The notes beneath the pieces are model-generated. The model ran no database searches and was not told the origin of the DNA. It saw only the letters and a list, made by a program, of their open reading frames with translations. 64,000 nucleotides of DNA from a bacterium (GTDB lineage Bacteria > Pseudomonadota > Gammaproteobacteria > Burkholderiales > Thiobacillaceae). The stretch lies in contig WOUQ01000003.1 in the NCBI GenBank assembly GCA_009772925.1, forward strand, positions 62,001-126,000. The letters are read 5' to 3'. Positions 22,745-60,601 of the stretch are shown piece by piece. Numbering within the stretch: the stretch's first letter is position 1; each line of letters starts with the position of its first letter. A program made the position numbers and the translations under genes.

Positions 22745-22807
22745 GTAGGAGCGGCTTCAGCCGCGAACTGAACCGGTAGACGACTTCGCGGCTGAAGCCG
22801 CTCCTAC
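22745..22807. repeat. REP/BIME element, type A
   Basis: Two inverted copies of the hairpin GCGGCTTCAGCCGC, each with a GTAGGA foot (GTAG...CTAC), separated by about 19 bases. It sits in the divergent gap between the E1 gene and the GNAT gene. It is one of the type A copies; see also 25645, 42657 and 53416. Confidence 0.9.
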
Positions 22808-22885
22808 GTGGCGGGCCGCGAGCTTACCCCAGATCGCCGGGCGGTTGTGTTAACGTCCCGTCGCCGACAACGCCTCTATAACGTC

Positions 22886-23749
22886 ATGGCTCTGCCCAAA
22901 CTTGAACCCGTTCGCGACCAGGACCTGCCGGAGTTCTGCGCTTTTCTCCACCGGCACCTCAGTCCCAGCCACGCACCGGAGGTGTGGGCCGACGCCTTCC
23001 GCCAGGACTGGGGCGTGGACAAGCCCAATAACGGTTTCCTCATCCGAGATGAAACCGGCGGCATTGCCGGAGGCATCGGCGCCATCTATGCCTCCTATCC
23101 GGTGCGCGGCAAGCTGGAGACATTCTGCAATATCACCAGTTGGGTGGTGCTCGACGCCTACCGCACCCAGAGCATGCGCCTGGCCATGGCGGTGGTGTCC
23201 CAGCCCGGCTTCCATTTCACCGACCTGTCGCCCACCGCCGTGGTCGAACAGTCCCTCAGGTTCCTCAAGTTCAAGCCCATGGACGAGCGTCGCGTGGCGC
23301 TGTTCAACCTGCCCGCGCCGCATCTGCGCCTGGCGGGCTGGCGCGTGCTGACCGAAGCCGCCGCCATCGAGGCTGCCCTCGATGACGCCGCTGCCAAGGT
23401 GTATCGGGATCATCGCCATTTCCCCTGGCTGCGCTTCCTGGCGGTGGGCAAGGACAGCGACTGGAGCCTGGTGGTGTACAAGCGCGCGAAACTGAAGGGC
23501 TTGCCCAGCGCGGAGATCATCGGTTTCACCAATCCGGGGAATTTCCTGGCCCGCATGCCTCTGCTGGGCTGCCACTTCCTGCTCGCGGGCATGGCCACCA
23601 CGCGGGTCGAGACCCGCCTGCTGCCGGGACTGCCGGCCTGGCCGCACAAGGTCCTGTCGGGCTACCGCAACAAGGTGTTCCGCAGCGACAGCCTGGGCGA
23701 GGTCGACATCTGGAACCTCTATACGGAAAGCGCCGCCCTTGACCTCTGA
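22886..23749 (+). CDS. GNAT-like acyltransferase of the polysaccharide locus
   Basis: A 287-residue protein with a GNAT-type N-terminal part: LEPVRDQDLPEFCAFLHRHL, then NGFLIRDETGGIAGGIGAIY and TSWVVLDAYRTQSMRLAMAV, followed by a less typical C-terminal half containing TVVYKRAKL-like strands. ATG 22886 starts the conserved part; the frame is open upstream only through the REP element. The C-terminal 11 bases overlap the next gene. Likely an N- or O-acyltransferase acting on a sugar nucleotide or lipid-linked sugar; the substrate is not evident. Confidence 0.75.
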   Translation: MALPKLEPVRDQDLPEFCAFLHRHLSPSHAPEVWADAFRQDWGVDKPNNGFLIRDETGGIAGGIGAIYASYPVRGKLETFCNITSWVVLDAYRTQSMRLAMAVVSQPGFHFTDLSPTAVVEQSLRFLKFKPMDERRVALFNLPAPHLRLAGWRVLTEAAAIEAALDDAAAKVYRDHRHFPWLRFLAVGKDSDWSLVVYKRAKLKGLPSAEIIGFTNPGNFLARMPLLGCHFLLAGMATTRVETRLLPGLPAWPHKVLSGYRNKVFRSDSLGEVDIWNLYTESAALDL

Positions 23750-24749
23750 GCGCGACCTGTTTCCCGGACACAGCCCGATCCACCTGCCGGCGGACACGCC
23801 ACCCATTCTCAGCGTGGTGATCCACACCGAGGAGGAGTTCGACTGGAGCCGGGAGCACGCCCGCGAGGAAACCGGTGTCGAGCACATGCGCCACATCGGC
23901 CGTGCCCAGGAGATCTTTGATGCCTTTGGCATCGTCCCCAATTACGTCATCGATTACCCCATCGCCTCCCAGCCCCTGGCGTTCGAGACTCTGCGTCGCT
24001 ACCAGGACGACGGCCGCGCCCTCATCGGCGCCCATCTGCACCCCTGGGTGTCCCCGCCCCTGACCGAGCCCCTCTCCCGCGCCAACACCTACCCCGGCAA
24101 CCTGCCGCGCGAACTCGAATACGAAAAGCTGCGCGTGCTTACGGAAACCATCGAAGCGAATTTCGGCCACCGACCCCTGACCTATCTGGCGGGCCGCTAC
24201 GGCAACGGCCCCCACAGCGCGGACATCCTGGAGGCGCTCGGCTACGAGGTGGACATCAGCGTGGCGCCCCCCATCGACTACAGCGCCGACGGCGGCCCCG
24301 ACTACTCCGCTTACAGCGCCGAGCCATTCTGGTTTGGCCGGCAGCGCCGCCTGCTGGGCCTGCCCGGCGGCGGCGGCTACGCGGGCTGGCTGAAGTCGGC
24401 CGGTACGCCGTTCTACCGCCTGATCACCCACTCCAGCCTGCGCTGGGCGCGCCTGCCGGGCATCACCTCCCGCCTGCGTGCCTTCGAGCGCATCCGCCTG
24501 TCGCCCGAGGATTACACGTTCGCGGAAATGTGCCGGCTGACCCGCTCCATGCTGGACGAGGGACAGCGTATCTTCGTGTTCAGCTTCCATTCCCCTTCCG
24601 TACATCCCGGGTTCACCCCCTACGTGCGCGACATGGCCGGGCTCGAACGCTTCCTCGACAAGACGCGGCGCTATTTCGAGTGGTTCATGCGGGAATTGAA
24701 TGGCAGCAGCATGACGCCACTGGAGATCAGGCAACGACTCCTGACATGA
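23739..24749 (+). CDS. WalW-like polysaccharide deacetylase-family protein
   Basis: A 336-residue protein with an N-terminal SVVIHTEEEFDW block, equivalent to the NodB D-x-x-E/D region, and GAHLHPWVSPP, which provides metal-type histidines. Later segments are LTYLAGRYGNGPHSADILEALGYEVDIS and FVFSFHSPSVHPGFTPYV. This is the pattern of WalW proteins, which are found in polysaccharide clusters and belong to the NodB fold. It overlaps the GNAT gene by 11 bases. It presumably trims N-acetyl groups; activity has not been read directly from the sequence. Confidence 0.82.
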   Translation: MTSERDLFPGHSPIHLPADTPPILSVVIHTEEEFDWSREHAREETGVEHMRHIGRAQEIFDAFGIVPNYVIDYPIASQPLAFETLRRYQDDGRALIGAHLHPWVSPPLTEPLSRANTYPGNLPRELEYEKLRVLTETIEANFGHRPLTYLAGRYGNGPHSADILEALGYEVDISVAPPIDYSADGGPDYSAYSAEPFWFGRQRRLLGLPGGGGYAGWLKSAGTPFYRLITHSSLRWARLPGITSRLRAFERIRLSPEDYTFAEMCRLTRSMLDEGQRIFVFSFHSPSVHPGFTPYVRDMAGLERFLDKTRRYFEWFMRELNGSSMTPLEIRQRLLT

Positions 24750-24825
24750 AAGCCAGGAGATGCGCGATATCGGGTGCTCGCGCGTCCTTGTAGACAGAAG
24801 AGGTATCCATCACAAGGGAGGGTAC

Positions 24826-24957
24826 ATGAACCCCATCGAGTCGCTGAGATCGTATTTCGTGTGGTCGCGCCCGATTCGGGACGTATACGGGCCATTGAAG
24901 GGCCTCCGGATCGCGTGGCAATTGAGACGGGCCATGTGGGCTGCCCCGGCCGGGTGA
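24826..24957 (+). pseudogene. N-terminal fragment of the FkbM methyltransferase, out of frame
   Basis: ATG 24826 opens a frame NPIESLRSYFVWSRPIRDVY, then GLRIAWQLRRAMWAAPAG, ending at TGA 24955-24957. This matches the usual N-terminal helix region of FkbM methyltransferases in such clusters, and the catalytic part follows in the +1 frame. Removing one G from the GGG at 24952-24954 would fuse the two parts as AGETVEISLP. GGGAGGG lies eight bases before the ATG. Either a one-base insertion or a sequencing error at a G run. Confidence 0.75.
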
Positions 24958-24961
24958 AACG

Positions 24962-25624
24962 GTGGAAATCAGTCTTCCAGACCTGCGCCAACCCGTGACC
25001 CTCAGGGCCGGGACATCCGACGCCGCGGTTTTTCTCCAGGTGTTCGTGCAGAGGCAGGGTTATTTTCCTGTCGATGGCACGCCCAAATTCATCGTTGATG
25101 CCGGGGCCAATATCGGGTTGGCCTCGGTTTGCCTGGCCAACCGTTTTCCCGGCAGCACGGTGGTATCCATGGAGATCGATCCGTCCAACTTCACCGCGCT
25201 GGCGAATAACTGTCGCCGATACCCGGCAGTCGTTCCCATGCAGGTCGGCTTGTGGTCGCATGGCGCGACATTGGCGATCGAGAATCCCGAGGCGGACTCC
25301 TGGGCATTCCGCACGGTCGAGGTGGCCCCGGACACACCCGGCGCGATCCAGGCAATAGGCGTCGCGGACGTGATGGATCGATTCGGCAAAGACCGCATCG
25401 ATGTGCTCAAGATCGACATCGAGGGCGCCGAGAACGAGTTGTTCTCCGCCGACATCTCCGAATGGATCGATCGCATTGGCATGCTCGCCATCGAGATCCA
25501 CGAGCGCATTCGCCCTGGGGTGACGGAACGGGTATGTAATGCACTGGCCCGGTTCGGCTTCTCCCACCATCGATGGGAGGAGTACTGGATATTCAGCCGT
25601 TCAGCAAAGGGACGCCTCGGATAA
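24962..25624 (+). CDS. FkbM-family SAM-dependent methyltransferase (catalytic part)
   Basis: A 220-residue frame from GTG 24962 covering a full FkbM methyltransferase core. It has FIVDAGANIGLASVCLANRFPG (SAM-binding motif I), VVSMEIDPSNF (acidic loop), DVLKIDIEGAENELF (motif with the conserved Asp) and IEIHERIRPG. It probably O-methylates a sugar hydroxyl of the polysaccharide. The N-terminal ~44 residues lie in another frame (24826-24957), so the natural start may have been lost. The GTG has no good ribosome-binding site. If the shift is a sequencing artefact, the true gene is 24826-25624. Confidence 0.85.
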   Translation: MEISLPDLRQPVTLRAGTSDAAVFLQVFVQRQGYFPVDGTPKFIVDAGANIGLASVCLANRFPGSTVVSMEIDPSNFTALANNCRRYPAVVPMQVGLWSHGATLAIENPEADSWAFRTVEVAPDTPGAIQAIGVADVMDRFGKDRIDVLKIDIEGAENELFSADISEWIDRIGMLAIEIHERIRPGVTERVCNALARFGFSHHRWEEYWIFSRSAKGRLG

Positions 25625-25644
25625 CCCGTCACGCCAACCTCTCC

Positions 25645-25717
25645 GTAGGAGCGGCTTCAGCCGCGAAGACAGCGTTTATGACGCACGGGCGGAATTCGCG
25701 GCTGAAGCCGCTCCTAC
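25645..25717. repeat. REP/BIME element, type A with conserved linker
   Basis: Inverted GTAGGA-GCGGCTTCAGCCGC units flank a linker containing GACAGCGTTTATGA and GGAATT. Nearly the same linker is present in the copies at 42657 and 53416, so these three descend from one composite element. It lies between the FkbM gene and the convergent GT2 gene. Confidence 0.92.
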
Positions 25718-25808
25718 AGGGGGGGCGAGCCGGCTTGCGCCGGAGTGACATGGCAAGGGTTGATAGAGGCCACGGGATATGACCGAGCGGCCAGGCCGCA
25801 CGACCTGG

Positions 25809-26804
25809 TCAGGCCGAGGCGGGGCGTTTGCCGATGCCGAGCCGCCGCAGCGCGGCGGCGGCCAGCATCTTCAGGAAACCGCCGCTCAAGCCGTATCGCG
25901 CGGATTTCCGCAGGGCGTCCTCCGCCTCTCGCCATTCGCCGCGCTGCCGGAGCTGCCAGCAATAGTCGAGCCAGCCGCGGTGCAGGGCACGAAGCAGGGC
26001 ACGCTGCCTGCCTGGCTCCACCGCAGCCGGATGGCGCAGGAGGGACTCCTTGATTTCGAGGTTGGAGCGGGTGTGCTCCAGCGCCCTGTGGCCCTGCGAG
26101 GAATAGCCCTGGCCCGCCGCGCGTTGCAGGTAGAGCCCTTCGTCCAAAAGGGCACACTCGCCATGCAGGGCGGCGCGCAAGGCCCAGTCGCAGTCCCACA
26201 GCAGACACTCCGGACGGTAATCGCCGATGGCGAGATAGTCCTCGCGCGCCACCACGGGCCGCTGGAACGGCATGGGCACGCGGTCGAGCAGCGCCTCGAA
26301 CAGGCCGTCTTGAAAACGGGCCAGGCCGGCGCTGTCCGGATCTGCGCCTGCCTGCCTTCGAATAATGTCCATGCCGCGGTCCTGCGCCTGTTGTCCCGCC
26401 TCGCCGCGTTCTCCGAACCAGCGCACGCCCATGAACAGCACCCTGACCTCGGGCGAGGCCAGCAGGGCCGCGTTGGCTTTCTCCAGATAGTCGCCTCGCC
26501 ACAGATCGTCGTCGTCGAGAAAGGCCAGCACCTGCCCACGCGCTTCCCGCGCCCCCGCCGACTTGGCCGCGGCGCCTCCGCACGATTCCGCGAGGGCGAT
26601 CAGACGTGCGTTGGGGCCGGCCAGGGCCAGCAATTCCTCCTCGGTGAGGGGATGGCTCGAAGCGTCGTCCACCACGAGGAGTTCCCAATCGGTGCAACTC
26701 TGCGCCACCACGGAAGCGATGGCCTCGCGCAGCAGTTCCAGGCGGTCGTGGGTGGGCAGAATGACGGAAAAACGGGGTGGCATCGGGTTCCGGGGCGATG
26801 TCAT
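25809..26804 (-). CDS. Glycosyltransferase family 2
   Basis: A GT-A enzyme of about 331 residues. It shows RFSVILPTHDRLELLREAIA, LLVVDDASSH, the D-x-D-type LAFLDDDDLWRGDYLEKA and DWALRAALHG. The substrate cannot be read from the sequence. Several in-frame starts exist (26831, 26804, 26783); MPPRFSVIL at 26783 is the shortest consistent with the fold, and none has a convincing ribosome-binding site. It is the only gene in this part on the minus strand and stands alone, facing the FkbM gene. The 26832-27016 gap holds no recognisable gene. Confidence 0.88.
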   Translation of the reverse strand: MTSPRNPMPPRFSVILPTHDRLELLREAIASVVAQSCTDWELLVVDDASSHPLTEEELLALAGPNARLIALAESCGGAAAKSAGAREARGQVLAFLDDDDLWRGDYLEKANAALLASPEVRVLFMGVRWFGERGEAGQQAQDRGMDIIRRQAGADPDSAGLARFQDGLFEALLDRVPMPFQRPVVAREDYLAIGDYRPECLLWDCDWALRAALHGECALLDEGLYLQRAAGQGYSSQGHRALEHTRSNLEIKESLLRHPAAVEPGRQRALLRALHRGWLDYCWQLRQRGEWREAEDALRKSARYGLSGGFLKMLAAAALRRLGIGKRPASA

Positions 26805-27016
26805 GTCAGCTATCGGGAAAATCTGAAACATCCTTGTTATTGAGAAATACCAGAATTCAGTTCGCCGTGTTCGATTGTTTCCGGGTTCCGCGCGGATATC
26901 CGCGCGCTGAGCCGAAGGACTGCCCGCATGGTGTCTCTGAAATACCGCTCAAATTTTTCCGCCCCACGCCGTAATACAATCGGTGCCCTTCCACCGAGCC
27001 CTCGGCCCGCCGACGC

Positions 27017-27835
27017 ATGCTACGTATCGCCAAGAACCTCTACGACTACCGCGAGCTCATGTTCACGCTCGCCTGGAAGAACATTGCCCTGCGTTACAAG
27101 CAGGCCTACCTGGGTATCGCCTGGGCCATCGTCAAGCCGCTCATGCTCATGCTCATCTTCACCCTGGTGCGCAGCTTCGTCGGCATCGACAGCGGCAGCG
27201 TGCCCTACCCGGTGCTCACCTTCGCTGCCCTCATGCTATGGATCTTTTTCCAGGAAGCGGCCTCCGAGGGCGTCACCAGCGTGGTGGGCAACACCGCCCT
27301 CATCCGCAAGATCTACTTCCCGCGAGAAATCTTCCCCCTCACCAGCGTGATCACCAAGCTGGTGGAACTGGGCATCAACTTCCTCATCATCATGGGGCTC
27401 ATGGCCTGGTACGGCATCTTGCCGGGCCCCGAGGTGTTCTGGGTGCCGGTGCTGATCGCCTACACCATCCTCGCGGCCCTCACCATCGCCTTCGTCGGCG
27501 CCGCCATCAATGTGTATTACCGCGACGTGGGCAACGCCCTGCCCGTGCTGCTGTCCCTGGTCATGTATACCTCGCCGGTGATCTACCCGCTCAACCTGGT
27601 CAAGGACAAGCTCGTGACCCAGCAGGCCGCCGGCGAATGGTCCAACCTGCTCTATCAGATTTACCTGCTCAACCCCCTGGCCGGCCTCATCGACAGCTTC
27701 CAGAACGTCATGCTGCGCGGCCTGCCGCCGGACTTTTCCGCAATGGCCCCCGGTTTTTTGCTGGTGTGCTGCCTCTTGCCCCTAAGCTATCTGTATTTCA
27801 AGCGGGCCGAGGCCTATTTCGCTGACGTAATCTGA
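27017..27835 (+). CDS. ABC-2 polysaccharide exporter permease (Wzm-like)
   Basis: A 272-residue membrane protein with six hydrophobic segments. It starts MLRIAKNLYDYRELMFTLAWKNIALRYKQ, the cytoplasmic N-terminal helix typical of Wzm/KpsM/TagG permeases, and has AWAIVKPLMLMLIFTLV, the NTALIRKIYFPREIFP gate loop and YTSPVIYPLNLV. With a Wzt-like ATPase it exports a lipid-linked polysaccharide across the inner membrane. The ATPase gene normally follows directly; here it lies about 2.8 kb away (30629), separated by toxin-antitoxin modules and a duplication. Its stop is three bases before the first module. Confidence 0.93.
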   Translation: MLRIAKNLYDYRELMFTLAWKNIALRYKQAYLGIAWAIVKPLMLMLIFTLVRSFVGIDSGSVPYPVLTFAALMLWIFFQEAASEGVTSVVGNTALIRKIYFPREIFPLTSVITKLVELGINFLIIMGLMAWYGILPGPEVFWVPVLIAYTILAALTIAFVGAAINVYYRDVGNALPVLLSLVMYTSPVIYPLNLVKDKLVTQQAAGEWSNLLYQIYLLNPLAGLIDSFQNVMLRGLPPDFSAMAPGFLLVCCLLPLSYLYFKRAEAYFADVI

Positions 27836-27838
27836 ACC

Positions 27839-28139
27839 ATGCGTCTCACCCCCGCGCAAGTCGCCCTCATCAAGTCCGCGGTTGCCGACCTGGCCGGCCC
27901 CGAAGCCCGCGTGCGCCTCTTCGGCTCACGGCTGGATGACGATGCCCGCGGCGGAGACGTTGAACCTCTTGCTGGAGCTGCCAGACCCCGTCGACCGCCC
28001 CGCCCTGCTCGCGGCGCGCCTGGCCGCCCGGATTTCGCGCGGCATGGGTGGGCGCAAGGTGGATGTGTTGCTCAGCCCACCCAACCTAGAGCCCCGGCCC
28101 ATCCACGACATCGCCCTTCGGGAGGGCCGTCTGCTATGA
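27839..28139 (+). pseudogene. MNT-type nucleotidyltransferase antitoxin, frameshifted
   Basis: From ATG 27839 the frame reads MRLTPAQVALIKSAVADLAG and VRLFGSRLDDDARGGD, the GS-x10-D start of a minimal nucleotidyltransferase. Near 27961-27965 homology jumps to another frame: NLLLELPDPVDRPALLAARL, MGGRKVDVLL and IHDIALREGRLL, ending at TGA 28137-28139. One extra A after GTTG accounts for it. The restored protein of ~99 residues would be a MNT antitoxin that modifies its HEPN partner. As it stands it is inactive. It overlaps the next gene by ATGA. Confidence 0.8.
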
Positions 28140-28471
28140 CGCTGGAACTCGCCCTTGCCCAGCGTCTGCGTTTTCTTGCACGGGTCGTGCATAAGGAAAG
28201 CCGGCATCTGGCGACCACCGACCAACGCCTGTTCGCCAGCGCCTTCACGATTGACCGCGCCAGGCAACTGGAGACAGACCCGGACCTCGCCGAGCGCGTG
28301 GAAGCCTTCGTCGGCCGTATTGGCCGACTTCAGGACACCCTGGGCGACAAACTTCTGCCCGCCCTGCTCGCCGAAGCTCTGCAGACAGGGCACGAATTCG
28401 TGGCCGCCCTTACCACCGCTGCGAGGATCATGATCGCGGAAAGCGAACGCCGGATCCCCGCCCCCGGCTAA
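28136..28471 (+). pseudogene. HEPN-type toxin with internal deletion of its catalytic region
   Basis: A 111-residue frame: LARVVHKESRHLATTDQRLFASAF and ERVEAFVGRIGRLQDTLGDKLLPALL are the first helices of a HEPN-like partner of the MNT gene. The sequence then jumps directly to AEALQTGHEFVAALTTAARIM, the last helix. From memory of the family, about 50 residues are missing between them, including the R-x4-6-H RNase motif. The frame is preserved, so a shortened protein could still be made but should lack RNase activity. Together with the frameshifted MNT this module looks dead. Confidence 0.65.
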
Positions 28472-28497
28472 TCCACCAGGAGCACTCTCCCACTCCC

Positions 28498-28674
28498 ATG
28501 CCCGCTCAAATCCGACTTCCCCAAGTACAGATTGCCGACCTCTGCCGGCGATACCACATCAGCAAGCTCGCGCTGTTTGGGTCAGTGCTCCGGGACAATT
28601 TACGACCAGACAGCGTTTTATCGCCGAACAACCGAAAAATTCGGGGAGAACAATTGAAATGCGCCCTTCGCTAG
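28498..28674 (+). pseudogene. Truncated MNT nucleotidyltransferase remnant
   Basis: ATG 28498 opens MPAQIRLPQVQIADLCRRYH and ISKLALFGSVLRDNLRPDS, the N-terminal third of a minimal nucleotidyltransferase. After PDS the D-x-D catalytic segment is replaced by unrelated residues and the frame stops at 28672-28674. The break lies just upstream of another complete MNT gene, whose first bases overlap this remnant. It is the trace of a separate module replaced or cut by the next one. Confidence 0.7.
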
Positions 28675-28949
28675 CCCTGCAAACCCATCGCGAAGCGATA
28701 CGACAAATCGCCCTGCGACATCATGTGAAGCAAGTCCGTGTATTCGGCTCGGTCCTGCATGGCGACGACACGGACAACAGCGACCTGGATTTACTGGTCG
28801 AGCCCACACCCGCCACCACACTCATGGATATTGGTGCGATTCGCTATGAGCTAAGACAGTTGCTGGGCATTCCCGTTGATATCTTGACCCCCAAGGCATT
28901 GCCGGACAACTGCCGCGAACAGATACTGTCCGAGGCACGGCTGGTATGA
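28659..28949 (+). CDS. mntA: MntA-like nucleotidyltransferase antitoxin
   Basis: A complete 96-residue minimal nucleotidyltransferase. QVRVFGSVLHGDDTDNSDLDLLVEP carries the GS-x9-D-x-D catalytic motif, followed by LGIPVDILTPKALPD. Proteins of this type AMPylate a Tyr in the HEPN partner to neutralise it. The stop overlaps the start of the HepT-like gene at 28946 (ATGA), the usual arrangement. This appears to be the only intact module of the four in this stretch. Confidence 0.87.
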   Translation: MRPSLALQTHREAIRQIALRHHVKQVRVFGSVLHGDDTDNSDLDLLVEPTPATTLMDIGAIRYELRQLLGIPVDILTPKALPDNCREQILSEARLV

Positions 28950-29314
28950 GTAAGGCAGGCAAGCTGCGTGTGCCGGATTATCTTGGACACATCCTCGAGG
29001 CCATAAGACGAATTCACCTCTATGTCGAGAACATGACCGAGGTGCAGTTTCTTGAAGATGGCAAAACACAGGATGCCGTGATCCGGAATTTCGAGATCAT
29101 CGGCGAGGCGTGCCGGAACATTGATTCACTTCATCCCGAGTTCACACAAGAACACCCCGAGGTGCCCTGGGGATTTGCTTACGAAATGCGCAACGTACTG
29201 GCTCACGGCTATTTCAAGGTCGATCTTGAAATTGTCTGGCAGACCATACACACAGACCTGCCCGACCTGGCCGCCCAGATTGAAGTTCTGCTGAACAAGT
29301 CACATAAAGCCTGA
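28946..29314 (+). CDS. hepT: HepT-like HEPN RNase toxin (DUF86)
   Basis: A 122-residue DUF86/HepT protein. It contains DYLGHILEAIRRIHLYVENMT, DAVIRNFEIIGEACRNI and the catalytic/target block MRNVLAHGYFKVD, which has the R-x4-H-x-Y signature (Arg and His for RNase, Tyr for AMPylation). It should be neutralised by the MntA-like protein encoded immediately upstream. The module is complete and probably active. Confidence 0.9.
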   Translation: MSKAGKLRVPDYLGHILEAIRRIHLYVENMTEVQFLEDGKTQDAVIRNFEIIGEACRNIDSLHPEFTQEHPEVPWGFAYEMRNVLAHGYFKVDLEIVWQTIHTDLPDLAAQIEVLLNKSHKA

Positions 29315-29352
29315 TGCAATGTCGCCCTTCAGCTCTTCGTACCTACGTGGTT

Positions 29353-29722
29353 CCCACGCCCCACCCCGGCATCGGGCCCAATCGCTGTCGCATGAACCTC
29401 AAAGACACAAGGGTGCCTCTAATGATCCGTCATACCCGCGAAGGCGGTTATCCAGATCGTTGTTGCTACTCGGTTCCCACCTGCGCGGGAACAAAAATTC
29501 ATAGGTTGCCTCCCCCGTAGGAGCGGCTTCAGCCGCGAACACCCCGCCCCCACAACCACCCCCGCCAAGCCCACCCGCAACTGAACCCCCCATGCCCATC
29601 ATCGAAGTCAGCCACCTCACCAAGGAATACCGCCTGGGCGCCATGCAGCGCCTCAAGCAGACGCTGCTCAACTCGGCCGCCAAACTTGCCGGTAAACAGG
29701 TGAAAGAACGCTCCCTGTTCAG
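29353..29722 (+). repeat. Direct duplication of about 370 bp, copy 1
   Basis: Bases 29353-29722 recur at 30383-30760 with few differences. Copy 1 lacks a nine-base CCCCCGCCA unit present once more in copy 2 and has scattered substitutions. It covers a short intergenic segment (with an ACCCGCGAAGGCGG-type repeat), a half REP at 29517, and the first ~43 codons of a Wzt-like ATPase gene. The 3' boundary is the TTCA before the ATPase frame diverges. The region 29315-29591 holds no other gene. Confidence 0.92.
29517..29540 (+). repeat. Single REP hairpin, type A (in duplication copy 1)
   Basis: A lone GTAGGA-GCGGCTTCAGCCGC-GA unit with no inverted partner, lying upstream of the truncated ATPase start. 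The same unit is at 30546 in the second copy, so it was duplicated with the segment. Confidence 0.88.
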
Positions 29723-29828
29723 ATACCCTCAAGTTGGCTTGGGCTACTGCCGAAAAACAAGAGGTGGTCACAAATTATGGACACCTCGCAAGTCTTATAT
29801 GCTCATCGGCTCTACTGTATGCATTTAA
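29592..29828 (+). pseudogene. Truncated Wzt-like ABC ATPase N-terminus
   Basis: ATG 29592 opens MPIIEVSHLTKEYRLGAMQR and LKQTLLNSAAKLAGKQVKER, nearly identical to the intact ATPase at 30629. After SLF the sequence departs from the ATPase (RYPQVGLGYCR...) and stops at 29828, with no Walker A motif. It is the 5' fragment left in copy 1 of the duplication. Confidence 0.9.
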
Positions 29829-29882
29829 CACCACCACCATGAACCTCACTTTCATCCCCGCATGATCCATGCGGGAAACAAC

Positions 29883-30203
29883 ATGACAGAGCTCACCGAA
29901 TCCAAACTGGTCGAGATCACGGAACGACTCGTGCATGCACTTCACCCCAAACAAGTTGTCTTGTTCGGCTCCCATGCATGGGGCCAGCCCCACAAGGACA
30001 GCGATGCGGACCTGCTCGTGATCGTTGAAAAAGAGGGTGAACCCGGTTACCGATTGGCTCAACAGGCCTATCGTGCCCTCTACGGCGTACGTTACCCCTG
30101 TGACGTCATTGTCCATACCGCCGAGGAGGTCGAGCGGGCAAAACAGGTCAAGACATCCCTCCTGCGCAGGATCGTCGAACAAGGACGAGTGCTCTATGGC
30201 TGA
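29883..30203 (+). CDS. MNT-type nucleotidyltransferase antitoxin
   Basis: A 106-residue minimal nucleotidyltransferase. KQVVLFGSHAWGQPHKDSDADLLVIVE contains the GS-x10-D-x-D motif, followed by YGVRYPCDVIVHTAEE. ATG 29883 is preferred over 29862. The gene looks intact and overlaps its HEPN partner by eight bases. Because that partner is truncated by the duplication junction, this is an antitoxin without a full toxin. Confidence 0.85.
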   Translation: MTELTESKLVEITERLVHALHPKQVVLFGSHAWGQPHKDSDADLLVIVEKEGEPGYRLAQQAYRALYGVRYPCDVIVHTAEEVERAKQVKTSLLRRIVEQGRVLYG

Positions 30204-30549
30204 CCCCAAGACCGACGAAATCCGTCAATGGATGCAAAAAGCACATCACGACCTGCTTACCGCGGCCCAAGTCCTCGAACTGGACCAGCCACTGACCGAT
30301 ATCGCTGCCTACCATTGTCAACAGGCTGCGGAAAAGGCGCTAAAGGTATACCTGGTGCAACAAGATACACCCTTCAGCAAGACCCACGCCTTCCCCGGCA
30401 TCGGGCCCAATCGCTGTCGCATGAACCTCAAAGACACAAGGGCGCCTCTAATAACCCGTCATACCCGCGAAGGCGGTTATCCAGATCGTTGCTGCTACTC
30501 GGTTCCCACCTGCGCAGGAACAACAATTCATAGGTTGCCTCCCCCGTAG
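30196..30549 (+). pseudogene. HEPN-domain protein truncated by the duplication junction
   Basis: From ATG 30196 the frame reads KTDEIRQWMQKAHHDLLTAA, AAYHCQQAAEKALKVYL and DTPFSKTHAF, the first two-thirds of a HEPN protein. At base ~30383-30393 it runs into the duplicated segment and continues as non-homologous sequence (PGIGPNRCRMNLK...) to 30549. The C-terminal helix expected in this family is missing. The junction therefore formed inside this gene. Confidence 0.82.
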
Positions 30550-30760
30550 GAGCGGCTTCAGCCGCGAACACCCCGCCCCCACAACCACCCCCGCCACCCC
30601 CGCCAAGCCCACCCGCAACTGAACCCCCATGCCCATCATCGAAGTCAGCCACCTCACCAAGGAATACCGCCTGGGCGCCATGCAGGGCCTCAAGCAGACG
30701 CTGCTCAACTCGGCCGCCAAACTTGCCGGTAAACCGGTGAAAGAACGCCCCCTGTTCAAA
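30383..30760 (+). repeat. Direct duplication of about 370 bp, copy 2
   Basis: Second copy of 29353-29722. Here the segment joins truncated HEPN sequence on the left and continues into the complete ATPase gene on the right, so the right side is probably ancestral. It contains one additional CCCCCGCCA unit in the C-rich stretch just before the ATPase start. Confidence 0.92.
30546..30569 (+). repeat. Single REP hairpin, type A (in duplication copy 2)
   Basis: A GTAGGA-GCGGCTTCAGCCGC-GA unit without inverted partner, 60 bases before the ATPase start. It is the duplicate of the unit at 29517. Confidence 0.88.
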
Positions 30761-31969
30761 GCACTGGATGACGTCAGCTTTTCCATAGAGCAAGGCGAGG
30801 TGGTGGGCATCATCGGGCACAACGGGGCGGGGAAATCCACCCTGTTAAAGATGCTGGCGAGGATCAGTACACCGACCAGCGGCGAGATCAAGGTCAATGG
30901 CCGCATCGCACCCTTGATCGAGGTGGGCGCTGGCTTCGTGCCGGATTTCACCGGCCGTGAAAACGTCTACCTCAACGGCGCCATCCTCGGCATGTCCAAA
31001 CAGGAAATCGACAAGAAGTACGACGAGATCGTTGATTTCGCCGAGATGGCTGAATTTATCGACACCCCGGTCAAGCGCTACAGCTCGGGCATGCAGGTCA
31101 AACTTGCATTTGCAGTGGCAACCAGCATCGAATCGGAAATCCTGATCGTCGATGAGGTATTGGCAGTGGGGGACCTTGCGTTTCAGCGAAAGTGCTTCGA
31201 CCGGATGGAAGATTTAATTAAGGGTCAAGGCAAGACGGTTTTAGTGGTCTCTCACAATATCCGTCAGATCGAACGCCTATGCAGCAGGGTAATCCTCCTC
31301 GGCAACGGGCAGGTCCTTATGGACGGAAATCCAACCGAAGTCTGTAATCGCTTCTTCGATATCAACGATGACAAGGTCCAGTTGTCACACTCGGTACGTG
31401 CGCACGAAATGAAAACCGGTGAGATCGAACTTCTCAATGTTCGCCTTACCGACAGCGAAGGAAATATTGTTGACCAAGTCACCAGTGGACATGGTGTAAA
31501 CATCGTGATGACCTACCAAGTTAATAGGCCATTGAAACAGGTTAATTTCGGAGTTGGATTACATACGATCGATTTTATTTACCTCGCCACCAACAATTGG
31601 ATTGACGAACTGCCCCTAATCGATTTAGAGTCTGGTGAAGTAACCGTGTCTTTCCGAATACCATCTGTACCGCTATTGCCAAGGAGATACTCTCTGCGAG
31701 GCGGGGTGTCTATCGGTGAAAAGCAAGTTCCAATCTATTACGCTGAGGGCATCTTGCAATTCCAAGTCATTTCACAAAATGCATCAATTTCGGCCTCACA
31801 GGAGGCTGGTTTCTTAGCGATACAAGGTAGTTGGGATATTGCCACAAAGGCTTCTTCGGTTGAGTTAACCAGCAATTCCACAGTTACTGGCCATGATCCG
31901 CTAAGTAGCGTTGATGACAACACTGAGGTTCGCCAACCAAACCAAGGTTCATTCGGAACTGTCCGATGA
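30629..31969 (+). CDS. ABC exporter ATPase with C-terminal polysaccharide-binding domain (Wzt-like)
   Basis: A 446-residue Wzt-type protein. The nucleotide-binding domain (~1-250) has Walker A GHNGAGKST at residues 63-71, the signature region KRYSSGMQVKLAFAVA, Walker B ILIVDEVLAVGD and the switch His in VVSHN. The C-terminal ~180 residues are the Wzt carbohydrate-binding domain (EIELLNVRLTDSEG, VNFGVGLHTIDFIYLA). It powers export of the polysaccharide with the permease at 27017, and its C-domain selects the chain. Base composition becomes clearly more AT-rich within the C-terminal part (from about 31.4 kb), which fits exchange of the specificity domain by transfer. Confidence 0.93.
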   Translation: MPIIEVSHLTKEYRLGAMQGLKQTLLNSAAKLAGKPVKERPLFKALDDVSFSIEQGEVVGIIGHNGAGKSTLLKMLARISTPTSGEIKVNGRIAPLIEVGAGFVPDFTGRENVYLNGAILGMSKQEIDKKYDEIVDFAEMAEFIDTPVKRYSSGMQVKLAFAVATSIESEILIVDEVLAVGDLAFQRKCFDRMEDLIKGQGKTVLVVSHNIRQIERLCSRVILLGNGQVLMDGNPTEVCNRFFDINDDKVQLSHSVRAHEMKTGEIELLNVRLTDSEGNIVDQVTSGHGVNIVMTYQVNRPLKQVNFGVGLHTIDFIYLATNNWIDELPLIDLESGEVTVSFRIPSVPLLPRRYSLRGGVSIGEKQVPIYYAEGILQFQVISQNASISASQEAGFLAIQGSWDIATKASSVELTSNSTVTGHDPLSSVDDNTEVRQPNQGSFGTVR

Positions 31970-52182: not shown

Positions 52183-52192
52183 GTTGTTCAAC

Positions 52193-53338
52193 CTATCGTG
52201 CAATGAGTGACCAGGTTTTTTGGGCGATGGAAGGCCAGTTGAATTCGCTGTGCGCCCTCGCATGCCCCGCTTGCCCGAGGCGCGTGGCCAACTGGCCGTC
52301 GCCGAGCACGTCCGCCAGTTTGTCGACCACCGATTCCAGCCGTTTGCCGTCCACCCGGTAACCCGTCACGCCATCGCTCACGGCCGAGCCCGTGCCGCCG
52401 TCCTGGCCCGCGATGACCGGCCGGCCGCAGGCGGCGGCTTCCAGGAAGACCATGCCGAAGCCCTCGTTGTCGCCATTGATCTCGCGGTTGGGCATGACGA
52501 ATACGTCGCAGGCGTTGTACCAGCGCGGCAGGTCGTCAGGGCTGACATGGCCGAGCAGCTTGACGCGATCTCCAACACCGAGCTCCCGCGCGAGCCCGGC
52601 CAGGTAGTCGTGATCTTCGCCGATGCCGATCAGGGCATAGCGGACATCCAACCCTTGTTGCAAGAGCAGGGGCAGGCTGCGGATGACCATATCGAAACCC
52701 TTGCGGCGCGACAGCCTGCCCACGGAGAGGATCAGCTTGCATCCGGGAGCGACGCCGACGGATTGCCGCAGGTCCTCGCAGGGCAGCCCGGGCCGGAATA
52801 CGTCGGTATCGACGCCGGGATGGATCAGAGTGATGCGCTCGGGTGGAACCCCCATCTGGATGAGCGTGGCGCGGGTATGGTCGCTGTTGGCGATCACCGC
52901 GTCGGCGTGGGTGAGCGTGAAACGCATGGCCCGGTATTTCCCCCCGCTTCCCCAGGTGGTCAACTCCTCGCCGTGGGCGTACACGACCACCGGGCGGAGG
53001 GTGAGCCGGCCCACCAGCCACGCTACCAGCCCCTCGGGCAAGGCGCGGATGGCGTGAATGCCTTGCGGACGTCGGGTGACGGCGAGAAAGAGCGACTTGC
53101 GCAGCAGCCTGAGGTACATCGCCAGAGATTCCGGTTTCAGCCAGGGGATGCGCCGCAGGTCGAGGCGGTGAACGGTGTTGGGGTGTGTGGCGTCGAACTC
53201 GGCGGCCCCCGGCACGTCGGCGGTGACGATGTGGATGTCCTTGCCGCCGAGCCGCCGGTACACCTCGGCGGCCCATACGGCGGTGCCGCCCTTGGTGGGT
53301 AGGAACAGTTCCGTGATGACGAGCAGTCTGGCGTTCAT
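52193..53338 (-). CDS. Glycosyltransferase family 4
   Basis: A 381-residue GT-B enzyme, starting at the conserved MNARLLVITELFLPTKGGTA. It contains VVVYAHGEELTTWGSGGKYR, LILSVGRLSRRKGFDMVIRS, YALIGIGEDHDYLAGLAREL, MPNREINGDNEGFGMVFLEA and AGQDGGTGSAVSDG, like PimB/mannosyltransferase-type enzymes. It is minus-strand, 10 bases upstream of the TPR gene. Donor and acceptor are unknown. Confidence 0.92.
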   Translation of the reverse strand: MNARLLVITELFLPTKGGTAVWAAEVYRRLGGKDIHIVTADVPGAAEFDATHPNTVHRLDLRRIPWLKPESLAMYLRLLRKSLFLAVTRRPQGIHAIRALPEGLVAWLVGRLTLRPVVVYAHGEELTTWGSGGKYRAMRFTLTHADAVIANSDHTRATLIQMGVPPERITLIHPGVDTDVFRPGLPCEDLRQSVGVAPGCKLILSVGRLSRRKGFDMVIRSLPLLLQQGLDVRYALIGIGEDHDYLAGLARELGVGDRVKLLGHVSPDDLPRWYNACDVFVMPNREINGDNEGFGMVFLEAAACGRPVIAGQDGGTGSAVSDGVTGYRVDGKRLESVVDKLADVLGDGQLATRLGQAGHARAHSEFNWPSIAQKTWSLIAR

Positions 53339-53415
53339 CGGACTAGCGATCGTGGCGGAGGGGGGGATTCTTTCATAAACCTGGCCCGGATTTCGCGAAC
53401 ACCCCGATAACCTCT

Positions 53416-53489
53416 GTAGGAGCGGCTTCAGCCGCGCAGACAGCGTTTGTGATCGCACGCGCTGAATTCGCGGCTGAAGCCGCTCCTAC
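53416..53489. repeat. REP/BIME element, type A with conserved linker
   Basis: Inverted GTAGGA-GCGGCTTCAGCCGC units, the left one with CGCGCAG in place of CGCGA, and a linker GACAGCGTTTGTGATCGCAC also seen at 25645 and 42657. It lies between the glycosyltransferase and the deacetylase-like gene. Confidence 0.92.
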
Positions 53490-53506
53490 GGGAGGGGTTG
53501 CGTGAA

Positions 53507-54703
53507 TCATGCCAGCCTGTTGCTCAGGCCCGACAGGATGAGGCCGAGGCCGGTGAGGCGTGCCAGTTTCCAGAAACGCGGCAGGCGCCGCGCCCGCGCG
53601 ACCAAAGCGGCGAAGCGCCGGGCAAGACGCGTTTCCAGCCAGTCGCCGTGGCGGCGGTATTGCTCCGCGAGTTCGGCGCTGGAGGTGAAGCGCAGGTCTG
53701 TGTGTCGGGACAAGGCTTCGGCGAACAGACGGTCGAGTTCCCGCAGGGCGGCGGCGGCGTGTTCCCCGGTGAAGTTGAAGCGGTGGGTTTCCAGCAGGCA
53801 GGGTCTGCCCTGGGCGGTCTTGTCCCGCAGCGCGTCCAGCGCGCGCTCGGCGGCGTGGCCGTAGGCCGGCTCGAAGTAATCGTCGCGGACCAGGTAAAGG
53901 ACGCCGGCGGCGCCCGTCTGGCCATTGCGGAGGGCGACGCCCATGGCCCCGGCGGTGGGTTTGCCCGCCGCATCCCGGCCGATGTAGCGACGGCCCGGCG
54001 TGACCACGCAGGCCACGCCGCCGCGCGCCCAGGCGGCTTCCACCGTTTCGGTCCAGACGAAGGTGGGGGGCACCACCACCGCCGGCGAGTCGCCGAAGAT
54101 TTGGGTGTAAAGCGCGATTTCCTCGGCGACGGCGGCGCGGATTTCCGGCTCCGGCAGAGTGCGGGAGGGCAGCACACTGGCATCGACCCAGCGGGATTGC
54201 AGGGGGCTGGGCAGGGATTCGGTTTCCTGGCCGGGGCCGGCGAGGATCCAATCCAGCACTTGCGGGTCCGCCTGGCCGGCGCGCATGAGAGCCTCGGGCC
54301 AGTAGTGGGCCATGCCGTGGAGCTGGGGGGCAAAGATGCCGGCCGCGATGCCTTCCCGGATGGCGGCGAGGATGTCGGCATAGACGGGGGCGGTGAGGGG
54401 GAGGGAGTGGTAGGGAAGGGAAAGCCCAGCCGCCCGGATTGCCTGGCTATCGGGCAAGGACAGGGTCAGCCCGAGCGTCATCACCGGCAGCCGGCCGTTC
54501 GCGTCCCGATACTTCAGCAGGCATTTGGCCAAGCGGTGGAGCGCGGTGGCGTGCCGTGCCGGGCCGGGTCCCCAGTCGTCGCTCTCGACGATGAGAACCG
54601 GATGGCGCAGCGTCGGTTCGCGCCAGGCTGCGCGCAAAGGGCGCAGAAAAATCAGGATCAAGGCCACCCACACGAGCGGGGGCGCGAGCAGCAGCCAGGC
54701 CAT
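53507..54703 (-). CDS. Polysaccharide deacetylase-like membrane-anchored protein
   Basis: A 398-residue protein with an N-terminal membrane anchor (LLLAPPLVWVALILIFLRPL). The NodB-like core has PVLIVESDDWGPGPARH in place of the usual T-F-D-D-G block, FAPQLHGMAHYWPEALMRAG with histidines, VVPPTFVWTETVEAAW, and LLETHRFNFTGEH. This is the pattern of a deacetylase-fold family found in sugar loci, but the active site is unusual. It overlaps no neighbour; the asparagine-synthetase homologue is 17 bases upstream. Confidence 0.75.
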   Translation of the reverse strand: MAWLLLAPPLVWVALILIFLRPLRAAWREPTLRHPVLIVESDDWGPGPARHATALHRLAKCLLKYRDANGRLPVMTLGLTLSLPDSQAIRAAGLSLPYHSLPLTAPVYADILAAIREGIAAGIFAPQLHGMAHYWPEALMRAGQADPQVLDWILAGPGQETESLPSPLQSRWVDASVLPSRTLPEPEIRAAVAEEIALYTQIFGDSPAVVVPPTFVWTETVEAAWARGGVACVVTPGRRYIGRDAAGKPTAGAMGVALRNGQTGAAGVLYLVRDDYFEPAYGHAAERALDALRDKTAQGRPCLLETHRFNFTGEHAAAALRELDRLFAEALSRHTDLRFTSSAELAEQYRRHGDWLETRLARRFAALVARARRLPRFWKLARLTGLGLILSGLSNRLA

Positions 54704-54719
54704 CAGGGTGGTTCCACCG

Positions 54720-56519
54720 TCACAAGCGTTCGGCTTGCAGCCACTCTTCCAGCGTGGTCATGACCCAGATCATCTTGCCGAAGTAAGTGGCATGGCCGGT
54801 CATGTGCTCGCCACGCACATGGTCGATGTAGGCGGGTTGCAGGATGTCGCGCTTCTTCAGGTCGGCGAGCCGGTCCTCGACCCGCTCGCGCAGCGGTGTG
54901 TATTCCCTGGCCCAGACCCCGAACGGCAAGCCGAATCCATGTTTGCTCTTGTTGATGATCTCGTCCGGCAGGAAGCCCACCAGGGCTTTCTTGAAGAACC
55001 AGCGCAGGTAGCGGCCCTTTACCTTCCAGTCCGGCGGCACCTCGCCGGAGAAGTCCACCAGGGCGTCGTCCAGCAGCGGATAACGCACCTCGATGCCGGC
55101 GGCCTCGGTCATGCCGGCGACCTTGCGCAGGTCGTTGTCGGCGAGTGTGAACTTGAGGTCCAGGTGCAGCAGGCGATTGACGAAGGAATCGGAATCCGCG
55201 CGATCGTAGACTTCCTTCAGCAGGTCGCTGGGCTGATGGGCATCCACTCCGGACAGCAGGTCGGGCGTGAACATCCCGGTCAGGGGCTGCCGGTAGACGA
55301 AATTGTAGGATTCCATGCGTTCCGGCAGGGGGATGTTGGCTTGGCGGATGTAGCTCCGGGCCTTGCGCACGGGTGGGAGGGCGCCAAGCCCGGGCAATCC
55401 GGCCAGCGGCTCGATCAGGCCCTTGCGGACCAGTTCGGGCAGGAGGTGATAGGCCTCGAACACCTTCTGCTTGGCGTAGCGTTCATTGCCGCCGAAGATT
55501 TCGTCGCCGCCGTCCCCCGCCAGCATGAACCTGTGCCCGTCCTCCGCCGCCAGGCGGGCGCAGAAGTAGGTGGGCACGGCGGAGTCGTTGGCGAAGGGTT
55601 CGTCGTAATGCGTGGCGATCACCGGGATGGCGCTGACGATGTCCTCCGGCTTCAGGTAGTACTCGCGCATGTCCAGGCCGAAACGGCGCGCGGCGACGCG
55701 GGCGTATTCCATCTCGTCGAAGCCGTTGGCATCGAAGCCAATGGAGTAGGTGCTGGCTTGGCCGGCGAGTTCCTTGAGCACGCCGCTGACCGTGGAACTG
55801 TCGGTGCCGCCGGACAGGAACGAGGCGACTTCATCGCCCCCTTTGGCGCGGCCCACGCATTCGCGCAGCAGGCGATGGAAGCGAACGGCCTGGGTGTCGA
55901 AATCGTCGCGTGGTTCATCGCGATACGCCAGCACCCAGTAAAAGCCGCGGGTAATTTTCCCTTTGCGCCAATATGCCCACTGGGCCGGAAGGAGTTTCTC
56001 CACGCCGGAGAAAATGCTGCCGGGAGCCGGCACCTGGTGGAAATACAGGTAGTTGAACAGCCCCTGGTGATCGAGGCGGCGCCCCACCGCCGGGTGGGCG
56101 GCGACCATGTCCGCCTGGCTGGCGAAGACGATGCCGGCGGGGCCCGGCGCGAAAGCCAGCTTTTCCGCGCCGATGCGGTCGAGGGCGAGGAACACGCTTT
56201 GCTCGTGCCGGTCCAGCACCGCCAGGGCGAAGTTGCCGTGGATGTGTTTGGGCGCGTCGCGGCCATGCTTTTTCCACAGGGCGAGCAGGGCGGCGGCGGG
56301 AGCCAGCTTCTGCAGGGCCGAGTCCTCGAAGCGCGGGCGTCCGGTGATGAGGGCGGCGACGGGGCCCTCGACGGCCGGCGCCAGGTTGCCGGCCAGTCCC
56401 CAGTGCGGGTCGGCCTGGGTATGGGCGGGGCGGGCGACACTGCACGGGGCCAGCATCTGCTCCAGGATTTCGGCGGCGTCGGCCGTGTCGTGGCCGAGCC
56501 AGCCGGCGAGGCGGTGCAT
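54720..56519 (-). CDS. Asparagine synthetase homologue lacking the catalytic Cys2
   Basis: A 599-residue protein. The C-terminal synthetase domain is well conserved: VASFLSGGTDSSTVSGVLKE (P-loop), YDEPFANDSAVPTYF and LAGDGGDEIFGGNERYAKQK. The N-terminal part still resembles a glutaminase domain (NFALAVLDRHEQSVFLALDR, GIVFASQADMVAAHP) but starts MHRLAGWLGHD, without Cys2 and the following loops. It may use ammonia or another amine, or make another acyl-adenylate product. Start 56519 begins the homology. It is the third homologue in the window and the only minus-strand one. Confidence 0.85.
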   Translation of the reverse strand: MHRLAGWLGHDTADAAEILEQMLAPCSVARPAHTQADPHWGLAGNLAPAVEGPVAALITGRPRFEDSALQKLAPAAALLALWKKHGRDAPKHIHGNFALAVLDRHEQSVFLALDRIGAEKLAFAPGPAGIVFASQADMVAAHPAVGRRLDHQGLFNYLYFHQVPAPGSIFSGVEKLLPAQWAYWRKGKITRGFYWVLAYRDEPRDDFDTQAVRFHRLLRECVGRAKGGDEVASFLSGGTDSSTVSGVLKELAGQASTYSIGFDANGFDEMEYARVAARRFGLDMREYYLKPEDIVSAIPVIATHYDEPFANDSAVPTYFCARLAAEDGHRFMLAGDGGDEIFGGNERYAKQKVFEAYHLLPELVRKGLIEPLAGLPGLGALPPVRKARSYIRQANIPLPERMESYNFVYRQPLTGMFTPDLLSGVDAHQPSDLLKEVYDRADSDSFVNRLLHLDLKFTLADNDLRKVAGMTEAAGIEVRYPLLDDALVDFSGEVPPDWKVKGRYLRWFFKKALVGFLPDEIINKSKHGFGLPFGVWAREYTPLRERVEDRLADLKKRDILQPAYIDHVRGEHMTGHATYFGKMIWVMTTLEEWLQAERL

Positions 56520-57663: not shown

Positions 57664-57720
57664 GCAGGAGCGGGCTCGCCCGCGATTGGCCGGATTGATC
57701 GCGGGCGAGCCCGCTCCTAC
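57664..57720. repeat. REP/BIME element, type C
   Basis: Inverted units with stem GCGGGCTCGCCCGC and foot GCAGGA/TCCTAC. The stem differs from types A and B but the GCG...CGC ends and foot are the same. It is the only recognisable feature in the gene-free stretch 57423-57850; the rest shows no plausible gene or hairpin. Confidence 0.88.
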
Positions 57721-59887: not shown

Positions 59888-59988
59888 GGTTGGCAAGTGG
59901 TAAGTGGTAAGTAGTGAAAGATGAGTATCGGACCAAAGACGAGGTTTTCAAGGCATAGTTTCGGGTCATTGCATTGCTATTTCCGACC

Positions 59989-60516
59989 ATGGCCATCGAA
60001 TCCTACCGCGACCGCCTGCCCCGCCTGGGGCGCGATGTCTATGTCCACCCCGCCGCCACGGTCATCGGCGACGTCGAGCTGGGCGACGAGGTGTCGGTAT
60101 GGCCCGGCGTGGTCATCCGCGGCGACGTCCACCACATCCGCATCGGCGCCCGCAGCAACATCCAGGATGGCTCCATCCTGCACGTCAGCCGGCCCAGCGC
60201 GCGCAATCCCGATGGCGCGCCCCTGCTTGTCGGCCGCGACGTCAGCGTGGCCCACGCCGTGGTCCTGCATGGTTGCACGATCGGCGACGAGTGTCTGATC
60301 GGCATGGGTTCCCTGGTCATGGACCGGGCCGTGCTGGAACCCCGCGTGCTGCTTGGGGCCGGCAGCCTGGTGCCGGAGGGCGGTGTGCTGCAATCCGGCT
60401 GGCTGTATTTCGGCCGGCCGGCCAGGGCGGTGCGCTTGCTGGATGCGGGCGAGCTGGAACATTTCGCCGTGTTGGCCGCGAATTACGTGCGCCTGGCCGG
60501 AGAGTACCTCGCTTGA
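59989..60516 (+). CDS. Gamma-class carbonic anhydrase-like hexapeptide-repeat protein
   Basis: A 175-residue left-handed beta-helix protein. Hexapeptide repeats run through VHPAATVIGDVELGDEVSVW, GVVIRGDVHHIRIG and ARSNIQDGSILHV; zinc-type histidines are in ILH, SVAHAVVLHGCTIG. This is the YrdA/PaaY layout; catalysis is not proven for most members. ATG 59989 is the start of the conserved MAIESYRDRLPRLG. It is on the opposite strand from prlC, divergently transcribed across a ~100-base gap. Confidence 0.92.
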   Translation: MAIESYRDRLPRLGRDVYVHPAATVIGDVELGDEVSVWPGVVIRGDVHHIRIGARSNIQDGSILHVSRPSARNPDGAPLLVGRDVSVAHAVVLHGCTIGDECLIGMGSLVMDRAVLEPRVLLGAGSLVPEGGVLQSGWLYFGRPARAVRLLDAGELEHFAVLAANYVRLAGEYLA

Positions 60517-60545
60517 TCGGCTGCGGCGTGCGGGCCGCAGGGGTC

Positions 60546-60601
60546 GTAGGAGCGAGCTTGCTCGCGATGGACCGGTTATTCGCGAGCAAGCTCGCTCCTA
60601 C
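60546..60601. repeat. REP/BIME element, type D
   Basis: Inverted units with stem GCGAGCTTGCTCGC and foot GTAGGA/TCCTAC, separated by about 16 bases. The inner stem again differs from types A, B and C with pairing kept. It lies between the carbonic anhydrase gene and the convergent GAF protein gene. Confidence 0.9.

Follow-up and report, generated by a model that had tools for sequence, protein, structure and literature searches.

GTAG-type repetitive extragenic palindromes around a transposase gene in a Thiobacillaceae genome, with in-place inversion of the spacers of paired elements

Short hairpins with a GTAG foot are scattered among the polysaccharide genes of a 64,000-nucleotide stretch of a Thiobacillaceae genome (Gammaproteobacteria, Burkholderiales; GenBank assembly GCA_009772925.1, contig WOUQ01000003.1, positions 62,001 to 126,000, forward strand; "the window" denotes this whole stretch). 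Their stems differ from copy to copy with pairing kept, which raises the questions of what acts on them and whether the pairing reveals selection on the folded strand. Here, we report that they are repetitive extragenic palindromes (REPs) of the GTAG-1 type, mostly arranged as REPINs (in which an inverted pair of REPs and the short spacer between them fold into a single hairpin). Together with a resident gene for a REP-associated tyrosine transposase (RAYT) they very probably form a REPtron, in which two stem types, A and B, are one family acted on by that RAYT, and two others, C and D, are leftovers. We also report that the spacers of REP pairs invert in place between close relatives.

A check of the window sequence found a REP at all twelve coordinates at which the preliminary description had placed a GTAG foot with a hairpin. 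The unit is 22 nt long and consists of GTAG (once GCAG), GA, a stem of 5 to 6 bp with TTCA or TT/TC at its apex, GA, and a final A or T (once CA); GA precedes the stem and GAA/GAT follows it in 21 of 22 halves; the forward arm at 53416 alone departs from this. Foot and outer GCG/CGC had been called constant; however, the foot of the forward element at 57664 reads GCAG, and an A copy within the 53416 pair has CGCGC as its end in place of CGCGA. A scan of the window, which permitted up to two foot mismatches and also listed chance hairpins (each with one or two such mismatches), resolved the loci into nine head-to-head pairs, one tail-to-tail pair, and two singles.

Type A (GCGGC-TTCA-GCCGC) forms head-to-head pairs at 22745 to 22807, 25645 to 25717, 42657 to 42730, and 53416 to 53489, and type B (GCGCC-TTCA-GGCGC) at 47570 to 47637, 47723 to 47790, and 48262 to 48329, the first of these being a tandem copy (153-bp spacing) of the second. 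The tail-to-tail pair (44560 to 44625) is mixed, with an A element on the minus strand (44560 to 44581) and a B element on the plus strand (44604 to 44625). Stem C (GCGGGC-TC-GCCCGC) occurs as a head-to-head pair at 57664 to 57720 and stem D (GCGAGC-TT-GCTCGC) as another at 60546 to 60601; each probably belongs to another REP family. The singles are type A, on the plus strand (29517 to 29538 and 30546 to 30567), and sit in the two copies of one direct repeat, which are spaced about 1.03 kb and match over 212 nt at 96% identity, followed by 135 nt at 98%. The repeat copies (29364 to 29721 and 30393 to 30758; about 0.36 kb, 96 to 98%) each hold a GTTCCCACCTGCG(C)(A/G)GGAAC-like palindrome beside the single A REP.

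Both arms carry the same stem type in all nine head-to-head pairs. Seven of these pairs were folded whole as single-stranded DNA, and every one gave one long hairpin, with z between −8.7 and −11.4. Of the singles, one was folded, and it gave a 5-bp hairpin with its foot unpaired (z, −2.5). The REPIN arrangement is thus present at 9 of the 12 loci, and the unit has the marks of a GTAG-1 REP: an unpaired GTAG at one end, an unpaired dinucleotide before the stem, a 3-bp tail, and stem variation that preserves pairing.

REPs had been named beforehand as RAYT substrates, and a RAYT is the likely driver here, but the resident gene, at about 47813 to 48253 (plus strand) and bracketed by B pairs, had been missed. 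Its segment from 47813 scored 142 bits against profile NF047646 (cut-off, 80), and the Y1_Tnp profile was also over its cut-off on the open frame 47540 to 48253. The product matched the solved Escherichia coli TnpA-REP structure 4er8 (E = 3e-9), with alignment of what we take to be the HxH motif and the tyrosine region. Homology begins near 47819, and the start codon is uncertain because the frame stays open up to 47540, through two tandem B pairs (47540 to 47812). The B pair directly upstream ends 22 bp before 47813 and the one directly downstream starts 8 bp past the stop codon, so that a Y1 HuH transposase gene is bracketed by its REPs in inverted orientation, as in a REPtron. The named relatives of this RAYT suggest that it may belong to group 3, with the Pseudomonas and Stenotrophomonas RAYTs of perfect-stem REPs.

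At least three Y1-type genes are present in the host genome (G000), which rules out a single RAYT in the genome for all stem types. Besides the window RAYT, a second gene over the NF047646 cut-off (195.6 bits) lies at C30:25284-25715 (L289:5284-5715), flanked by unrelated GTAGGGCGGAA-type inverted repeats, and a Y1-type gene at C29:1116, with GGGGTCAGACAC repeats, scored 75 bits, under the cut-off. On the downstream side of the window RAYT, a glycosyltransferase frame (48250 to 48350; L162:617-805) starts ATGACCCAGTCC and reads in frame through the whole B pair (VGAPSGA...FAPEGAPT); an additional 39-bp REP in a relative (G029) preserves this frame, the start codon of which is uncertain, so the B pair may not be translated.

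The 3.22-Mb host genome was searched with the exact pattern GTAGGAGCG-N8-CGCGA, with the reversed pattern as control. There were 39 matches, compared with 1 for the control, and 20 of the 39 lay within the window; with 19 outside, the element itself is not limited to the window, but types A and B are almost confined to one region. Type A had 12 exact copies (10 in the window), type B had 7 (all in the window), type C had 1 and type D had 2 (all in the window), and stems GCGGGC-TT-GCCCGC (7 copies) and GCGGCC-TT-GGCCGC (10 copies) were found exclusively outside it. For A and B together, 17 of 19 exact genome copies fall within 22745 to 53489, about 31 kb around the RAYT; by locus, 10 of 11 A-or-B loci lie within 30.7 kb, which makes up about 1% of the genome. 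Clustering of this degree would very rarely arise by chance, although the span was picked post hoc and P values serve as a guide only. Because a two-mismatch pattern was swamped by chance (83 matches, compared with 116 in the control), degenerate copies were excluded from the counts. Read most simply, A and B go with the resident RAYT, whereas C, D, and the stems outside the window represent different families that are probably older; alternatively, the cluster may have come in as part of the region, which would then have brought its REPs along. The four stem types had been treated as one family, which would apply to A and B with the resident RAYT, but C and D need not share that RAYT: their stems are similar to those of further REP families in this genome or its genus, and they look like relics.

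Inner stem bases were reported earlier to vary with pairing kept, and the census bears this out: across the six exact stem types of the genome, the inner three stem positions are complementary in 18 of 18 cells. For a wider sample, the best 80 of 235 relatives of the window RAYT were taken, their flanks were scanned for GTRGGA-N14-GA (pairing not required), and covariation was judged by column shuffles (n = 500) and slid pairings. Such 22-mers were obtained at 31 of the 80 loci (64 entries, 53 unique). Their outer-stem Watson-Crick fraction was 0.736, compared with 0.425 in the column shuffles (maximum of 500, 0.502) and only 0.19 to 0.38 in slid pairings. All five outer pairs were Watson-Crick in 31 of the 53 unique 22-mers, and pair 5 was G-C in 15, C-G in 14, and A-T in 9. 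The density of REP-like 22-mers was 1.32/kb up to 300 bp from a RAYT and 0.10/kb beyond 1,500 bp, a 13-fold difference.

One RAYT serving several stem types had been thought unusual. The sample speaks otherwise, with at least two stem types at 10 of the 21 loci that carry a fully paired REP. A gammaproteobacterial metagenome-assembled genome (G061; L101) likewise has a single NF047646 match, 123 exact pattern matches, and stems A, B, and GCGAC around its RAYT, and some of its pairs join an A arm to a B arm. Copies of A and of B also occur in a further genome, G031, which has three NF047646 matches. In a genome of the same genus as the host (G010), the RAYT is flanked by GCGGGC-TT-GCCCGC, a stem found elsewhere in the host genome, and by close variants; its REP copies, among the matches listed, are mostly of that stem, which suits an assignment of the host's other stems to a different RAYT. 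Group 3 enzymes in vitro require key loop bases and an intact stem, and many base swaps in the stem cost them only a mild to moderate part of their activity, mismatches being harmful; in the group 3 system REPMb, cleavage was reduced by a swap at stem position four (PMC8266576).

For a comparison between relatives, we used three contigs (C77, C125, and C187; L033/L162, L163, and L164) of G029, a metagenome-assembled genome of another genus in the same GTDB family. They are about 95 to 98% identical to the window over aligned positions 19285 to 25453, 43451 to 47311 (with one unaligned stretch), and 47634 to 55041, and five element sites, four of them head-to-head pairs, could be compared. At 22745 and 53416 the G029 spacer is the exact reverse complement of the window spacer, with arms unchanged and flanks near identical; the spacers of two of the four comparable head-to-head pairs have therefore been inverted in place. 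The arms of these two window pairs measure 21 and 26 nt. At 47723 and 48262 the spacers are not inverted in G029 (by alignment), the latter pair having one extra reverse REP (39 bp) there; the inverted-repeat arm scan scored these two B pairs "other," apparently through arm trimming. The layout of the mixed pair at 44560 is unchanged, a sixth site outside the window (C66 and G029 C7; flanks about 84 to 91% identical) is not inverted, and all six comparable non-REP inverted repeats with arms of at least 9 nt are unflipped.

The high identity of these contigs to the window, despite the different genus of G029, could reflect horizontal transfer of the polysaccharide region, an explanation toward whose rejection we lean. 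On C247 and C239, G029 has 72 to 82% copies of its own for some of these genes and of genes next to them, and the three contigs are for that reason more likely to come from a strain near the window's species and to have been misbinned. Either way, the comparison of flips stands.

As to what acts on the elements, we favour the RAYT with good confidence. The enzyme would recognise a single-stranded REP by its GTAG, its apex, and an intact stem, to which it would bind, and would copy or move A and B pairs preferentially near itself. We infer that it is active and serves A besides B, that covariation may persist since a mispaired stem would be a poor substrate, and that C and D are probably left over from related REP families, the RAYTs of which this genome lacks.

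Several results weigh against this reading. Only B stands directly beside the window RAYT, A being linked to it through G061 and by co-location, and the A/B difference lies at the fourth stem position, where the REPMb swap lowered cleavage (PMC8266576). Some REP-like copies in the host genome break a stem pair (by eye; e.g., C22:14057 and C30:35047). In the sample of relatives, 22-mers of exact geometry occurred at only 31 of the 80 RAYT loci and were fully paired at 21, and 22 of the 53 unique 22-mers were not fully paired in the five outer pairs, although several of these are one GTGGGATGC-type sequence, kept in the count, that is possibly not a REP. The 39 unique 22-mers more than 1,500 bp from a RAYT pair equally well (0.733, compared with 0.475 when shuffled; maximum, 0.569), and pairing is therefore not special to the RAYT flank. 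Lastly, the comparison with G029 revealed no movement onto an empty site, all five compared sites being occupied in both relatives, and the sole copy-number difference at these sites is the extra REP beside an existing pair.

Spacer inversion was also sought in three Pseudomonas genomes (580 kb each: G126:C1 2413001-2993000, G161:C1 2377001-2957000, and G175:C1 1025001-1605000), which were 91.9 to 92.6% identical over aligned segments of 409 to 485 kb, and in 100 kb of a fourth. (Pseudomonas faucium, compared with 297 other genomes of the genus, had a best identity of 86% among the matches listed.) A syntenic anchor was present in 78 and lacking in 120 of the 198 REPIN-by-pair tests; among the anchored ones, 63 had a REPIN in both genomes, 13 had something else, and 2 were empty. 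The 63 comprised 22 in the same orientation, 2 inverted, and 39 neither. The two inversions had identities of 0.98 (near exact) and 0.86 (probable), with 0.1 expected from nonorthologous pairs at the same cut, and a third candidate (0.85) was left in "other" through insufficient margin. At a looser cut of 0.75 there were 3 inverted, whereas chance alone predicts 1.5, and weight can be given to the tight cut only. In the 39 "neither" comparisons, which share genomes, the two REPINs are not clearly one and the same element, and in 32 of them at least 2 of the 22 arm bases differed; orthologous intergenic REPIN sites look reused while their elements are swapped.

A scan by inverted-repeat arms (at least 12 nt; cut, 0.8; three pair comparisons sharing genomes) gave flip counts that are small and nonindependent, and it did not include the near-exact 0.98 case. 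Head-to-head REP pairs were the same in 17 cases, inverted in 2 (0.86 and 0.80), and neither in 40; tail-to-tail REP pairs were the same in 18, inverted in 4 (two exact and two weak), and neither in 29. Pairs near a REP gave 4 same, 1 inverted, and 8 neither, and non-REP repeats gave 22, 1, and 23, with a few further cases absent or short; two of the flips (0.87 and 0.82) fall on the same G175 site. The non-REP flip has 30-nt arms and a spacer identity of 0.84 inverted, compared with 0.59 direct. Non-REP arms of 10 to 11 nt gave 133 same and 0 inverted (the difference of two arm-scan runs).

These inversions bear on the second question, for which the preliminary description had taken covariation as a sign that the folded single strand is selected. 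The covariation is real, but alone it does not prove selection on the fold, because strand-switch copying in a hairpin could rewrite both sides of a stem. Such copying has been proposed for quasi-palindromes. Flips suggest a mutational route to stem covariation, a pattern easily read as proof of fold selection. We tentatively entertain the possibility that paired REPs are recurrent sites of in-place inversion: their long, perfect inverted arms, in head-to-head or tail-to-tail order, would allow a strand switch during replication or repair that flips the intervening DNA and copies one stem or arm onto its partner. Part of the covariation and arm identity would then be made by mutation, the RAYT acting only as a filter.

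A stronger form, in which the covariation is a mutational footprint altogether and strand switching within hairpins or between arms rewrites stem sides and homogenises arms, seems rather doubtful. It would accommodate the two exact in-place flips in the window, the Pseudomonas flips (one near-exact and one probable head-to-head, two exact tail-to-tail), and the single stem type on both arms of every head-to-head pair in the window, which fits arm homogenisation. However, the unpaired GTAG, the GA, the apex, and the GA tail are constant as well, which palindrome repair does not explain, and pairs of mixed type persist in G061.

Could the RAYT itself make the flips, a REPIN being excised as single-stranded DNA and reinserted in the opposite orientation? 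Flips were found at REPINs in RAYT-bearing genomes, but flips also affect tail-to-tail pairs (two exactly), although these do not constitute REPIN units, and the non-REP repeat with 30-nt arms. With no flips against 133 unflipped short-arm non-REP repeats, arm length is the better predictor, the counts being small. The flips thus track long inverted arms and not the REPIN unit. This counts against their being made by the RAYT and renders such an origin unlikely; they look driven by the inverted arms rather than by a transposase. Set beside a site-specific inverton, in which a dedicated invertase would act on the arms, a general process is what the flips at tail-to-tail pairs and at one non-REP repeat point to.

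Slightly more improbable still is that the REPs act mainly as RNA, either ending transcription of the polysaccharide operons or stabilising their mRNA as hairpins, so that GTAG would be incidental. The elements do sit among polysaccharide genes, and their pairs fold strongly (as DNA, in the seven cases above); in Thauera, GTAG-1 arrays flank exopolysaccharide (EPS) genes (PMC3733652). Yet GTAG is unpaired in the single REP, where an RNA hairpin would not need it conserved, and the 13-fold rise in density toward the RAYT points elsewhere. An excess of polysaccharide-like genes at RAYT loci was not found in a crude count (7 of 79 loci, compared with 23 of 184 control pieces, all from Pseudomonas), and on this basis there is no general link between RAYTs and polysaccharide genes. 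Finally, assembly error as the source of the flips is unlikely, given the short arms of the window pairs (21 and 26 nt) and the occurrence of the Pseudomonas cases in single-contig genomes (contig C1 equal to the genome length, 6.6 to 6.8 Mb).

Much of what the RAYT reading involves is already known: GTAG-1 REPs, their stem subfamilies, their RAYT association, and their EPS-gene neighbourhood. For the GTAG-1 family, Di Nocera and others (2013; PMC3733652) described subfamilies with alternative complementary stem residues, along with RAYT association and coexisting families among GTAG REPs; most families have members throughout the genome, with one noticeably clustered exception. The window elements share with GTAG-1 the GTAG foot, the unpaired dinucleotide, the 3-bp tail, the short stem and loop, head-to-head and tail-to-tail pairs, a RAYT nearby, stem subfamilies, and a place among polysaccharide genes, as the Thauera arrays lie beside EPS genes; they differ in the new host (Thiobacillaceae) and in the near confinement of two subtypes to 31 kb around one RAYT (PMC3733652). 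As REPs they are ordinary, and the locus is a compact one (one RAYT, two stem variants, 31 kb) for RAYT stem requirements.

Like the REPINs of Pseudomonas fluorescens SBW25 (Bertels and Rainey, 2011; PMC3116915), the window pairs are inverted, RAYT-linked doublets with a short spacer and predicted hairpins, but here the spacer inverts in place, and neither "inversion" nor "flip" occurs in that text. Nunvar and others (2013; PMC3686654) reported an orthoswitch of REP classes around orthologous RAYTs and orphan classes after RAYT loss. The present case resembles it in having one RAYT lineage with several REP variants and orphan REP classes, and differs in that A and B coexist near one RAYT, and in G061 within single pairs (PMC3686654).

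The process of inversion is itself not new, because small inversions at chloroplast palindromes are known (e.g., trnH-psbA; PMC2903610), which likewise flip in place between close relatives; the difference is that the arms here are bacterial REPs, a repeat that recurs genome-wide (PMC2903610). What is new is the in-place inversion of REP-pair spacers, seen in near-identical contigs of a relative and in Pseudomonas; no report of it was found among the papers that literature searches listed, judged by titles and abstract openings. In alignments, such flips mimic clusters of substitutions between REPs.

In the wider region, positions 25454 to 43450 were not found at high identity in G029. A low-GC stretch spans 28000 to 41000 (48 to 60% in 2-kb windows, compared with mostly 62 to 70% around it) and holds a HepT-like gene at 28946 and Wzt-type ABC and WbsX genes.

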